Source of the DNA: Synechococcus sp. MU1642
GTDB taxonomy: Bacteria; Cyanobacteriota; Cyanobacteriia; PCC-6307; Cyanobiaceae
Direction: 5' to 3'
Assembly (NCBI RefSeq): GCF_020514115.1
Contig: NZ_VTKZ01000008.1
Location: 1 to 64,000, forward strand
DNA length: 64,000 nt
This document shows, in pieces, positions 27,018-32,764 of the stretch. The position numbers were made by a program, and so were the translations under genes. Numbering within the stretch: position 1 is the stretch's first letter; every line of letters starts with the position of its first letter. The notes beneath the pieces were generated by a model that was not told the origin of the DNA, made no database searches, and was given only the letters and a program-made list of their open reading frames with translations.

Positions 27018-28445
27018 TTAATTCTTCGTTCTGCTTATTAGTGACAACTGCCCTGGAGTGATTGCTGCCCGCACCTTTGCTGCTGTCTTCTCACGCTGGA
27101 TAAAGCGCAAATAACGCTCCTCCAGCATCTTTGGCGACATATGACCGTTGTCCGCAAAATCCCGGATGTATTGCGTGGTACCGAGTTCTGGGTAGTCCTC
27201 CAAGGTCAAGCGGAACGCGGTATGGCGACAGGAGGTCCAATCAATCCCTTTGGTTGAAATACCTGCCTTCTCACACGCCTTCTTGAGAAGGAAGTTGATC
27301 GTCTCTCCAACGTTACTCTCGTTTTCGTTGCCTTCCGTTCTCTTGATGTGGGGAAAGTTCAACCACCCCAGTGGTTTCCTCTGGAGAATGCGGCGGACGT
27401 TCTCCAACGCATCTGGTCGGTAGGCATAAGTGTCGTACTTGCCCCTGTCGCCCTTCGTTTTCTCAAGGAAGCAGATAACCAGAGCTTCTCCCGCATCGGT
27501 CAGTTGCTCGCTGAACCACTCACTTCTCAACCGAGGAGCATCCTCACTTCGGAGGTAATAAAACCACCCCAAGTAGAGCGCGTCATACAAATCAACCCAG
27601 TTGCGTGAGTTCTGACGGTTCGTCTGGGTCCAAGGCAGTTCCCGATATTCCTCCGCCGTCAGAGACCGGCGAGCAGCACCACCAGACAGTTCGGCGACAA
27701 CGCGAACCAATTGCTCCCACTCCTGATGTGTGAAATGCCTCTTCTGACGCACGCTCTTCTTAATCGCAGGAAACTCAGGGCAGGACAGAGCGGGGAAATC
27801 TGCCTTCGCCTCTTTGAAGAGGTTGCGGATAAGGGTCTTGTATTGCCTTCTGGTCTCTTCTCCTGAGTTGCCCTTCGCTTCACAGTTCTCCCTTATGAGA
27901 CGGAAGAACTCCAAAAAGTCGTTGCTCGTGATCGCCTGAATGCTTTTGACAGTCGCCCAGGGTTGAACGCCTATGCCTGTGGTTCCGTTCCAAAGGTTCC
28001 GCTTGTCGCTCAACCAACGACTTCGGTTGTTCCTTGGTTCCAGTTTCGCCTTGGCACACCAACGCTCCCAATAGACCGACAGAGCGTGTTGCTTCTCCAC
28101 TTCCCACACTTGGGACTGTGAGAGGAGGTCCTGCCACTTCTTTTGAGAGGCAGCGACCGCGACCTTTGCTGCTTCCCAGGGGTCGGTGGTCCCGCAAGTT
28201 CCCTCTATATAGATGCGCTTGCCCCGCCCCCGATTGGTTTTGCCAGCAAACGGACGAGGGTCATCTACTTTCTCCGGCAGGAAGCGCCACTGGAGGTTCT
28301 TGGTCTTTCTGCTGTTCGCGCTGGGTTTTTGACGAACGACCGATAGAGAGGTGTGGGGGATATTCCCTTTGCCCCCCAGGTCGCGCACCACATTGAGGGT
28401 GTGAAGGGTGCCGTCTATCCATTCCTGTGGCAGCGACCGTCCCAT
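27018..28445 (-). CDS. Tyrosine-recombinase integrase of the island
   Basis: A 475-residue phage-type integrase, the likely enzyme for insertion at tRNA-Phe. The catalytic domain shows the first Arg region (YYLRSEDAPRLRSEWF), the RHT box (TSCRHTAFRLTLEDY), the GH box (DFADNGHMSPKMLEERY) and the nucleophile Tyr in EERYLRF. In box II the usual first His of HxxR is replaced (TSCR), as in some integrases. It lies about 170 bases inside attR and reads away from it. Confidence 0.9.
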   Translation of the reverse strand: MGRSLPQEWIDGTLHTLNVVRDLGGKGNIPHTSLSVVRQKPSANSRKTKNLQWRFLPEKVDDPRPFAGKTNRGRGKRIYIEGTCGTTDPWEAAKVAVAASQKKWQDLLSQSQVWEVEKQHALSVYWERWCAKAKLEPRNNRSRWLSDKRNLWNGTTGIGVQPWATVKSIQAITSNDFLEFFRLIRENCEAKGNSGEETRRQYKTLIRNLFKEAKADFPALSCPEFPAIKKSVRQKRHFTHQEWEQLVRVVAELSGGAARRSLTAEEYRELPWTQTNRQNSRNWVDLYDALYLGWFYYLRSEDAPRLRSEWFSEQLTDAGEALVICFLEKTKGDRGKYDTYAYRPDALENVRRILQRKPLGWLNFPHIKRTEGNENESNVGETINFLLKKACEKAGISTKGIDWTSCRHTAFRLTLEDYPELGTTQYIRDFADNGHMSPKMLEERYLRFIQREKTAAKVRAAITPGQLSLISRTKN

Positions 28446-29448: not shown

Positions 29449-30105
29449 ATGTCCAGGCTGAAGACAGGGCTGAAGGTCAGCGCCTGGGTCGCCATCTTCA
29501 TTGTTGCCGTCGTTTCTTTGCAGCGATACGGCATTGCTCCGCTGCAAAGCGCCGTGAACGACATGGGCATCTTGGCCCCACTCGGCCTATTCCTGCTGCG
29601 AGGGGTCAGCATCATCCTGCCGGCGCTGCCGAGTTCGGTGTATTCCCTGCTGGCCGGCTCGCTGCTGGGCTTCAAGGCGGGCTATCTCACGATCATCCTG
29701 TCGGACCTGGTGTTCTGCAGTGCGGCCTTCTTCATCGCCCGCCGCTGGGGACGCAGACCGGTGAGCCGTCTGGTGGGTGCCAGCGCAATGAAACGCATCG
29801 ATGGCTTCAGCAAGAACCAGCTGGAAGGCAACTTCTTTTTGATGACCGGCCTGCTGATGACCGGATTGTTTGATTTTCTCAGCTATGCCATCGGGATCAG
29901 CCGCACCCACTGGCGTCTCTTTGCCCCAGCCCTGCTGATCAGCGTGCTGATCAGCGATTCGATCCTCGTTGCTGTCGGCGCAGGTGCCGCTCAAGGCGCC
30001 AGCCTCACCCTGGGATTGGCACTGCTTGCCATGTTTGCTCTCGCCACCATCACAGGTCTGCTGAAAAAGAAATCCTTAGAGGTGTCCTCCGACAAGCACC
30101 TCTGA
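29449..30105 (+). CDS. DedA/TVP38-family membrane protein
   Basis: A 218-residue membrane protein with several hydrophobic helices. LPSSVYSLLAGSLLGFKAGY and IARRWGRRPVSRLVG fit the VTT domain (SNARE-associated, DedA/TMEM64). Members are lipid scramblases or transporters in other organisms. It precedes the phycobilisome cluster and is likely unrelated to it. Confidence 0.8.
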   Translation: MSRLKTGLKVSAWVAIFIVAVVSLQRYGIAPLQSAVNDMGILAPLGLFLLRGVSIILPALPSSVYSLLAGSLLGFKAGYLTIILSDLVFCSAAFFIARRWGRRPVSRLVGASAMKRIDGFSKNQLEGNFFLMTGLLMTGLFDFLSYAIGISRTHWRLFAPALLISVLISDSILVAVGAGAAQGASLTLGLALLAMFALATITGLLKKKSLEVSSDKHL

Positions 30106-30215: not shown

Positions 30216-30641
30216 ATGAGCGCACTGGCAGATCCGAGAATTTCTGTCCTGCAGAACCAGGCCGGTAGCAGCGGTGAGCTGGATCTACCGGTGGGAGAGG
30301 GCTGTTTTCGGATCAACCTCCGTGATGAAAACATCGCGCTCTGGCAGGAAACATTGGACCAACACACCACGGCGGACAACCTTCTGCTGGCTTGCGAAGA
30401 AAGCAATGGGGATCTCAAGGACACCCGCCTGACCTGGGTGGTGGGATCTGCCATCCGTACAGCGACGGCCTCAAGCCCAGACGCCGTTGGCTGGCTTTTG
30501 TCGCAGTTGGGGGTACCAACAGACCTCACTGAAGCAGCCATCACACGTTGCCCTGGGTTGGGGGACGACCTGGTGTGGGCCTTCTACCTGGAACGCCACG
30601 GCTGGCTGATCGCCACACCGGTGGCCAGCGTCAACCCTTGA
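30216..30641 (+). CDS. Hypothetical protein at the edge of the phycobilisome cluster
   Basis: A 141-residue soluble product (MSALADPRISVLQNQAGSSG). No domain recognised. Its stop overlaps the TTG start of the phycobiliprotein-like gene (TTGA), so the two are probably co-translated and may act together. An upstream TTG at 30213 is an alternative start. Confidence 0.65.
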   Translation: MSALADPRISVLQNQAGSSGELDLPVGEGCFRINLRDENIALWQETLDQHTTADNLLLACEESNGDLKDTRLTWVVGSAIRTATASSPDAVGWLLSQLGVPTDLTEAAITRCPGLGDDLVWAFYLERHGWLIATPVASVNP

Positions 30642-31213
30642 ACTTCCACAACATCGACTTCAAGACCTTGGTGCAGACCGCACAGGTTCAAGGACTGAGC
30701 ATCAACCAAGATTTGCCGCAGGCGACGCGCAACATTCTTGAGCGTGCGGATCAAGCCCAATGCCAACTAACGGCCGATGACCTTGTCACGATCTGCCAGC
30801 TCTCCGGCATGGATGACTCGCTCCCCGGCAGCCTGATCCATCGGTCGGATCAACTAGTGAACCAGGCACGGGGACATCTGCTTGAAACCCAGCCGCATCT
30901 GGTGCAACCGGGCGGGGCTCTCTACCCGCAGGACAGAGCAGATGCCTGCTGGCGCGACTGTTGGAATTTTCTACGCGTGATCATCTACGCGGTGGCCTGC
31001 AACCAGAGCTGCTTTACACATCCGAGCGGCATGGCCGCCCTTAGAGAGCTATACAGACGAATGAACGTGCCCATCGAGGGGATGAACATAGCCCTCGGTC
31101 AGCTCAAAGAGAAGGCCCTAGAAGGGGTCTCGCGATCAAACGACCGTCAGTTGATCCACGACTGCTTCCAGCACTTACACGCCGAGCTCAACAAATCTGC
31201 AGTTAAGAGCTGA
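30638..31213 (+). CDS. Phycobiliprotein-like protein of unknown role
   Basis: A 191-residue product from a TTG coupled to the previous gene. It aligns with phycobiliprotein beta chains: HLLETQPHLVQPGGALYPQD matches the [20 protein letters not shown] region of the phycocyanin beta chain, and ADACWRDCWNFLRVIIYAVA matches the [20 protein letters not shown] segment that carries the bilin cysteine (Cys-82). RELYRRMNVPIEG follows the same helix order. The bilin Cys and Arg-Asp are kept, but identity is low. It may bind bilin or act as an assembly factor. Confidence 0.7.
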   Translation: MNFHNIDFKTLVQTAQVQGLSINQDLPQATRNILERADQAQCQLTADDLVTICQLSGMDDSLPGSLIHRSDQLVNQARGHLLETQPHLVQPGGALYPQDRADACWRDCWNFLRVIIYAVACNQSCFTHPSGMAALRELYRRMNVPIEGMNIALGQLKEKALEGVSRSNDRQLIHDCFQHLHAELNKSAVKS

Positions 31214-31284: not shown

Positions 31285-32043
31285 ATGGCCATCCCGCTTC
31301 TTGGGTACCCGCTCAACACCCAAAACGGTCGCGTTAGCAACCTGGCCGGCGACAACAGCACCATCAATCCCCCAACGTATGCCTCCTCTGCAGCGGGCGA
31401 TGACAGCGCCAGAACAGACATAGACAGCTTGATTGAACAGGCCTATCGCCAAGTCTTCTTCCATGCGATGCGCAGTGATCGCGAACCGTTCCTGGAATCA
31501 CAGCTCCGGAGCGGCAACATCACGGTTCGGGATTTCATCCGAGGTCTTCTGCTTTCGGAACGCTTCCAGCAGGGCTACTACCAGTGCAACTCGAACTACC
31601 GGATGGTGGATCAGGTGGTGGGACGCGTGCTCGGGCGCCCGACCCATGGCGACGCCGAACGCCGGGCCTGGTCGATCGTGATCGGAGAGAGGGGCTTTAC
31701 CGCCTTCGTCGACGCCCTGCTCGACGGCCCGGAATACATGAACTGCTTCGGGTACGACCTGGTTCCTCAGCAACGTTCACGCGTTCTGCCCGGGCGGCCC
31801 CTTGGGGAAATCCCGATCTACCAACAATTCCCGCGCTACGGAACCGACTGGCGCGACGCCCTTCAAGATCGGGCGCCTATCCATCAGGGTGCGCAGTCAG
31901 AGCGACTGGAGGTTGCTGCCACTTGGTTGAACGAGGAACCCCCTGCTTTCGCTCTCAAGCTCTGGCTCGGCCTGTTTGCCGTCGGTGGATTCGAAATCGT
32001 GCGGGTGCTCTCTACCATCGTTGTCGCGATGCTGCGCAACTGA
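31285..32043 (+). CDS. cpcG2: Rod-core linker CpcG2 with hydrophobic C terminus
   Basis: Phycobilisome linker of 252 residues. The Pfam PBS-linker domain spans about residues 45 to 180 (IEQAYRQVFFHAMRSDREPF, RDFIRGLLLSERFQ, YRMVDQVVGRVLGRPT). The last 30 residues form a membrane-like helix (LKLWLGLFAVGGFEIVRVLS then TIVVAML), as in CpcL-type linkers that anchor rods in the thylakoid. It opens the rod linker group. The motif AAGTATTTCTACTCACG ends 9 bases before its start. Confidence 0.88.
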   Translation: MAIPLLGYPLNTQNGRVSNLAGDNSTINPPTYASSAAGDDSARTDIDSLIEQAYRQVFFHAMRSDREPFLESQLRSGNITVRDFIRGLLLSERFQQGYYQCNSNYRMVDQVVGRVLGRPTHGDAERRAWSIVIGERGFTAFVDALLDGPEYMNCFGYDLVPQQRSRVLPGRPLGEIPIYQQFPRYGTDWRDALQDRAPIHQGAQSERLEVAATWLNEEPPAFALKLWLGLFAVGGFEIVRVLSTIVVAMLRN

Positions 32044-32044
32044 G

Positions 32045-32764
32045 ATGGTGATGCCCAAATCTGGGGCTCTAAATCTGCGTGAGTGGACGGCACCCGAAAC
32101 GTGCGGAACAACAAGCGCAGCCACAAATCCAGTCGATGCTCGAGGGGCTGACTGGAGCGGTCAGGACTTGGGAGACCTCGACCTAAGAAACGCCAAGCTC
32201 TGTCGCTCTGATCTGCGCGGCACAAACCTCAGCCAGTGCCAACTCGAAGGCGCTGATCTACGTCTGGCCCGTTACGACCAGGCCACCCTGGTGCCTGAGG
32301 GCTTCGCACTGAACACAAGCGGTGCCGTGGGCCCCGGCGCGAAGCTTAATGGGGCTTTTCTCAACAGCACAGATCTGCGCGGGATGGACCTCAGGGGAAG
32401 CGTGTTGATGGGCGCCTATCTGAGTGGTTCAGATCTGAGTGGAGCTTTGCTCGATGGCGTTTCTTTAGCAGGCGCTGACCTGCGATCAGCCACGTTTCGC
32501 GGAGCCATGTGCCGGGGGACCCGCTTCGGAACCTGCGAGATGGACATGGCCGATCTTCGCGGGGCCAACCTGGAGGGGGCAGCTCTTGAAACGGTGACGT
32601 CGATTCGGGGGGCAGACTTTTCGCTCTGCACCGGACTTGAGGATCAAATTGGTGCTCTGCTCGGTCGATCCGTCCAAGAACTCGACTGCTGGAATCCGAT
32701 GACACGCTCCACGACAAGGGCGAGCCTTGAGTCCCTGATCAAGGAGCAAGGGCAGGACGCCTAA
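32045..32764 (+). CDS. Pentapeptide-repeat protein
   Basis: A 239-residue product with repeated A(D/N)LRG units (DLGDLDLRNAKLCRSDLRGT, DLRGMDLRGSVLMGAYLSGS and more) that form a right-handed beta helix. It starts 2 bases after cpcG2 and sits among linker genes in other marine Synechococcus too. Function unknown. Two ATGs (32045 and 32051) are possible. Confidence 0.8.
   Translation: MVMPKSGALNLREWTAPETCGTTSAATNPVDARGADWSGQDLGDLDLRNAKLCRSDLRGTNLSQCQLEGADLRLARYDQATLVPEGFALNTSGAVGPGAKLNGAFLNSTDLRGMDLRGSVLMGAYLSGSDLSGALLDGVSLAGADLRSATFRGAMCRGTRFGTCEMDMADLRGANLEGAALETVTSIRGADFSLCTGLEDQIGALLGRSVQELDCWNPMTRSTTRASLESLIKEQGQDA

Follow-up and report, generated by a model that had tools for sequence, protein, structure and literature searches.

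What does a divergent phycobiliprotein-like protein do in a picocyanobacterium, and does the small gene in front of it encode its partner? The question is raised by two overlapping forward genes at positions 30216-31213 of the window, a 64,000-nucleotide stretch on contig 5 of the 2.1 Mb genome of Synechococcus sp. MU1642. The preliminary description had reported a 191-residue product whose TTG start overlaps a 141-residue gene in the letters TTGA and which carries Cys-Trp-Arg-Asp at the bilin site; both frames were confirmed, and the motif is present from Cys104 onward (Table 1). The TTG start of aplA is credible, since the open frame of the relative G131 is only 192 aa long and the 4-base overlap with a TTG start recurs in several same-genus relatives. 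The gene order unk4-aplA-cpcG2-unk5 in the window is the one published for marine Synechococcus, where the rod region runs unk3, unk4, aplA, cpcG2, unk5 (Six et al. 2007, PMC2246261). According to the same study, aplA is preceded by unk4 in phycoerythrin strains and is itself located upstream of cpcGII in all phycoerythrin-II strains, and unk3 is a six-helix membrane protein without a direct tie to phycobilisome structure (PMC2246261). The unk4-aplA pair is already known, and because AplA was named in this same arrangement in marine Synechococcus in 2007 (PMC2246261), the suggestion that the 191-residue product is far from any known subunit does not stand as a claim of novelty. About 2 kb 5′ of the rod region, the window also contains a 475-aa frame (27018-28445, minus strand) whose C-terminal end resembles a tyrosine recombinase.

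Table 1. Features of the unk4-aplA locus, with positions in the window.
Feature	Position	Strand	Evidence
unk3-like membrane protein, VTT domain, 5′ of unk4	29449..30105	+	PF09335, E 6.1e-10
unk4, 141 aa, ATG 30216 to TGA 30641, picocyanobacteria only, phycoerythrin-linked	30216..30641	+	
TTGA shared by unk4 (stop TGA) and aplA (start TTG)	30638..30641	+	read from sequence
aplA, 191 aa, TTG 30638 to TGA 31213, allophycocyanin-like (Apl family)	30638..31213	+	
AplA N-terminal extension relative to allophycocyanin, ~26 residues	30638..30715	+	profile start positions, alignment
Cys104-Trp105-Arg106-Asp107, predicted site of bilin attachment, Apl signature	30947..30958	+	conservation
Rod-core-type linker in the cpcG2 position, 71 bases 3′ of aplA	31285..32043	+	PF00427, E 5e-38
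unk5, pentapeptide-repeat protein (start codon within frame not fixed)	31976..32764	+	PF00805, E 3.7e-21 on 32207-32764

The 191-aa product is almost certainly AplA of the allophycocyanin-like (Apl) family, a phycobiliprotein paralogue that has a globin fold and an additional segment at the N-terminus. It matches the Pfam Phycobilisome family (PF00502, E = 4.7e-28), its best sequence matches among solved structures are allophycocyanins (E ~3e-12), and the best of the curated subunit models is ApcA (1.6e-14), followed by ApcB (3e-13). All of these models score far below their curated cut-offs (bits against cut-off: ApcA 54.2/270, ApcB 50/228, CpcB 41/279, CpeB 36/275). Since the nearest relatives are the allophycocyanins ApcA and ApcB, the likeness is not specific to beta chains; the phycobiliprotein fold that the preliminary description had read from a beta-chain-like helix order stands, whereas the beta-specific resemblance does not. 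ApcA, ApcB and ApcD are the closest canonical relatives both by sequence (~20-28 % identity) and by fold, but they carry Leu, Ala or Tyr after the bilin cysteine where AplA has Trp, and they are set apart from it by the ~26 extra N-terminal residues, by the loss of canonical invariant residues in AplA and by their position in the tree.

We sorted Apl proteins from canonical subunits by a profile search of 291 class genomes together with a scan of the retrieved loci. The scores leave a gap, with Apl proteins at 142 bits or more and canonical subunits at 99 bits or less, and one branch with a support of 100/100 separates the two groups in a maximum-likelihood tree built from 94 Apl and 65 canonical rows. 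The window protein falls outside the canonical subunits in this tree, in the same Apl clade as the loci of RCC307 and WH7803, two strains of the 2007 study, and its gene lies between unk4 and cpcG2, as expected of an Apl orthologue. These findings support the earlier proposal of a role outside the standard alpha and beta subunits.

The Apl family was reportedly first described in Fremyella diplosiphon in 2004. The AplA of Fremyella and of phycoerythrin-II marine Synechococcus have in common with the window protein the allophycocyanin-like fold, the N-terminal extension, the bilin-site residues and a solitary gene, and the position between unk4 and cpcG2 is shared with the published Synechococcus genomes; nothing was found that would exclude the window protein from the family, Fremyella AplA being compared by description. 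The Fremyella work, as it is cited in PMC2246261, presents AplA as a photoreceptor derived from phycobiliproteins and without connection to the phycobilisome. In the literature searched, no subsequent study of the function of AplA or of other Apl proteins was found.

The residues of the bilin site are strongly conserved, and the cysteine in particular, whose conservation in orthologues had been named as a test, is invariant. Both Cys104 and Trp105 are invariant among 54/54 non-identical picocyanobacterial orthologues, while for Arg106 and for Asp107 there is one sequence each in which the residue is absent or unread; across the class, the Apl rows carry Cys in 94/94, Trp in 94/94, Arg in 93/94 and Asp in 94/94. 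The tryptophan sets the family apart, because canonical subunits have Leu, Ala, Tyr, Ile, Ser or Val after the bilin cysteine, with Leu, Ala, Tyr or Ser at this position in the 65 canonical alignment rows. The Cys, Arg and Asp of the bilin site are common to Apl and canonical subunits, as are Arg113 and Tyr117 (AplA numbering), whereas other residues that are invariant or nearly so in canonical subunits are lost in Apl, including two glycines and a C-terminal Tyr and Asp; at one of these sites Gly is found in 65/65 canonical rows and in 25/94 Apl rows. The Asp equivalent to the subunit-contact Asp13 is kept in 82/94 Apl rows. Cys104 would most likely carry one covalently bound bilin.

The N-terminal segment is a further family character. 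Canonical proteins mostly begin to match the Apl profile at position 25 or later and Apl proteins at positions 2-8, and a conserved Ala-Asp of ApcA, which we take to be its residues 11-12, aligns with Ala37-Asp38 of AplA. The resulting extension of ~26 residues agrees with the original description of the family, which is said to have given ~28 residues relative to allophycocyanin.

An AlphaFold2 model of AplA, built with 38 natural sequences (pLDDT 93.3, pTM 0.90), has a phycobiliprotein-like fold; neither of the two results that would have refuted the preliminary description, a fold that is not globin-like or a cysteine not conserved in orthologues, was obtained. Foldseek returned allophycocyanin B first (E 5e-6), and a second structure comparison gave Z ~14 for both smURFP and allophycocyanins. 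Over the globin core (residues ~55-185) the fit to canonical folds is 2.2-2.5 Å, but it loosens to ~3.5 Å or worse when the whole chain with its N-terminal helices is compared. This is suggestive of a dimer-forming N-terminal hairpin that sits differently in AplA, as predicted for the monomer and read without a canonical-subunit control. No structure fits the core better than smURFP, an engineered, allophycocyanin-derived, self-labelling fluorescent protein (Z 14.4, rmsd 2.2 Å over 131 residues); smURFP is an engineered biliverdin binder without the N-terminal hairpin, whereas AplA is natural and keeps it.

The distribution of AplA was compared with that of phycoerythrin, with CpeB matches above the curated cut-off as its marker, in 201 genomes of the family to which the window belongs and in 255 genomes outside it. 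Within the family, AplA was found in 56 genomes, unk4 in 67 and CpeB in 123. CpeB accompanies AplA in 53/56 cases and unk4 in 64/67; the three CpeB-less exceptions are the same genomes for both genes, and at least one of them (G096) is only 85 % complete. Outside the family, 55 genomes have both AplA and CpeB, seven AplA only, seven CpeB only and 186 neither (Fisher p 6e-40), and the Mantel-Haenszel odds ratio for AplA and CpeB within families having both states is ~112 among the genomes listed. The seven AplA-only and seven phycoerythrin-only cases remained after the discordant genomes were re-examined. The data thus show a strong link between AplA and phycoerythrin, which is not absolute because seven genomes are discordant in each direction outside the family. 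Phycoerythrin without AplA is found in Synechococcus WH7805 (PMC2246261) and, in our survey, in most Prochlorococcus-type genomes, and AplA is therefore not needed for phycoerythrin as such. This co-distribution was not found in the literature searched, the original 2004 description of AplA lying outside that search, and outside the picocyanobacterial family it is a new result here, without a claim that it was never noted before.

The near-perfect co-occurrence across cyanobacteria argues that AplA serves the phycoerythrin pathway, and we consider it probable that the protein is a phycoerythrin accessory rather than an antenna subunit. AplA retains the bilin-binding Cys-x-Arg-Asp but lacks a number of the residues that never vary in antenna subunits; it would hold one covalent bilin on Cys104, build no rods and act in phycoerythrin biogenesis, most likely either by holding bilin or chaperoning in soluble form or as a bilin- or light-dependent switch.

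The neighbourhoods of aplA in distant cyanobacteria were also inspected. Many of the 35 distant loci have phycoerythrin-type linkers, unk5-like pentapeptide proteins and CpeS-type lyases close by. In Rippkaea orientalis PCC 8801, aplA is annotated as 'phycobilisome protein' and lies on plasmid pP880102 (L225, 7854-16414), where it comes after cpeA, cpeB and the two PEB-synthesis reductases and before a pentapeptide protein and a lyase. The cluster on this plasmid is located between transposases and has the form of a compact phycoerythrin cassette. In ~10/35 distant loci, pentapeptide proteins with 42-55 % identity to unk5 are encoded close to aplA, indicating that the linkage of aplA and unk5 is older than the picocyanobacteria. 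In most lineages outside the family, aplA adjoins a gene for a HEAT-repeat protein of ~219 aa, which is related to NblB and scores below the NblB cut-off (L185:2056-2715; similar in L120-L133 and L178-L195). The best whole-genome homologue of this protein was the aplA neighbour in 13/14 genomes tested; in the window genome it is matched only weakly and away from aplA (35 %). Outside the picocyanobacteria, AplA has in this NblB-like HEAT protein a candidate lyase or partner.

Unk4 has a different distribution. It was found in 67/201 genomes of the family and in 0/255 genomes outside it, and it lies directly 5′ of aplA in all 41 named loci retrieved. Nevertheless, unk4 occurs without AplA in 21/67 unk4-positive family genomes and AplA occurs without unk4 in 10/56, so that unk4 tracks phycoerythrin better than AplA. 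The AplA-less unk4 genomes are mostly of the Prochlorococcus type, that is, small genomes with a single cpeB, in which unk4 lies 6-8 kb from cpeB. In three of them (L092, L093 and L088) the order is a PUCC-family transporter, unk4, a phycobilisome linker, CpeS, CpeT and CpeY, without aplA or cpcG2. These counts speak against the initial idea that the upstream protein is the specific partner of AplA: Unk4 is a picocyanobacterial phycoerythrin-cluster gene, separate from AplA, and not its dedicated partner. It matches the unk4 of the marine Synechococcus rod region by its place, its length class and its occurrence across phycoerythrin strains (PMC2246261), and our analysis extends that description to the phycoerythrin cluster of AplA-less Prochlorococcus-type genomes and adds a confident model (pLDDT 91.5, pTM 0.88). 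The Unk4 sequence gave no usable match in Pfam, NCBIfam or the PDB; the model gave none among PDB folds (Foldseek best E 1.8; Z 2.6 in the second comparison) or among viral models (best E 0.45), and neither unk4 nor aplA was found in phage records. The modelled Unk4 thus appears to be without a relative among solved or viral structures, although the lack of a match does not by itself establish a new fold. From their positions, unk4 and aplA would be co-transcribed and translationally coupled, and Unk4 probably assists phycoerythrin itself rather than AplA.

Several other explanations of the locus have to be weighed against this reading. A dedicated two-protein complex of Unk4 and AplA, as first proposed, is suggested by the constant position of unk4 in the named loci and by the 4-base overlap kept within the genus, but each gene occurs without the other in the family and Apl proteins occur across the class without unk4, and we regard such a complex as decidedly unlikely. 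One metagenome-assembled genome has unk4 and aplA in a single 405-aa open frame (L146:2371-3585, contig CAMAVE010000008.1; same sequence in L023), which could be taken in favour of a complex; the frame arises from a one-base deletion plus a substitution, through which the unk4 stop TGATCCC reads TGGCCC, and close relatives keep two genes. We set this fusion aside as a recent change or consensus error in a single assembly. It is barely conceivable that AplA is a functionless, decaying duplicate of an allophycocyanin subunit: its divergence from canonical subunits is high and a few copies look decayed (e.g. L081), but dN/dS is ~0.17-0.29 for aplA and 0.11-0.18 for unk4, placing both under purifying selection, aplA is present in all 11 same-genus genomes, the bilin-site motif is invariant, and Apl forms a single ancient clade across the class.

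As regards the choice between a sensor, a chaperone and a minor subunit, the shared distribution of AplA and phycoerythrin speaks for an accessory of phycoerythrin. A role as a minor structural component of the rods or of the rod-core junction, together with the linker encoded by cpcG2, would fit the phycobiliprotein fold, the location of aplA 71 bases 5′ of that gene and the retained equivalent of Asp13. We nonetheless hold it to be improbable: there is no partner subunit gene, invariant residues of canonical subunits such as the glycine above are lost, the N-terminal hairpin fits worse than the globin core, and outside the family the neighbour of aplA is often not cpcG; Fremyella AplA, moreover, was published as separate from phycobilisomes, by the account given in PMC2246261. 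The main rival to the accessory role is a sensor of the phycoerythrin regulon, namely a soluble photosensor in which absorption by the bilin would alter conformation or partner binding and tune the expression of phycoerythrin or rod genes. A green-light sensor controlling phycoerythrin would also fit the co-occurrence, the residues around the bilin are kept (Cys104, Arg106, Asp107, Arg113 and Tyr117), and a signalling partner is not required if AplA works by protein contact. However, AplA is without an output domain, no adjoining regulator was recognised in the loci examined, and the genes around it encode phycoerythrin linkers, lyases and NblB-like HEAT proteins. We also count against a sensor that canonical phycobiliproteins are not known to be photoreversible, and we consider this alternative unlikely.

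We tentatively propose that AplA may be a dedicated and ancient cofactor of phycoerythrin biogenesis throughout the cyanobacteria, not a general photosensor, that it may act with an NblB-like HEAT protein in most lineages, and that Unk4 may be a factor specific to phycoerythrin whose fold differs from all solved structures and which would have been added to the cluster in picocyanobacteria and retained when Prochlorococcus lost both AplA and phycobilisomes. In Unk4, abundant marine cyanobacteria have a confidently modelled protein for which no structural relative is known. For AplA, until now a 'photosensor of unknown function', the class-wide match with phycoerythrin yields a proposal that is specific and testable.
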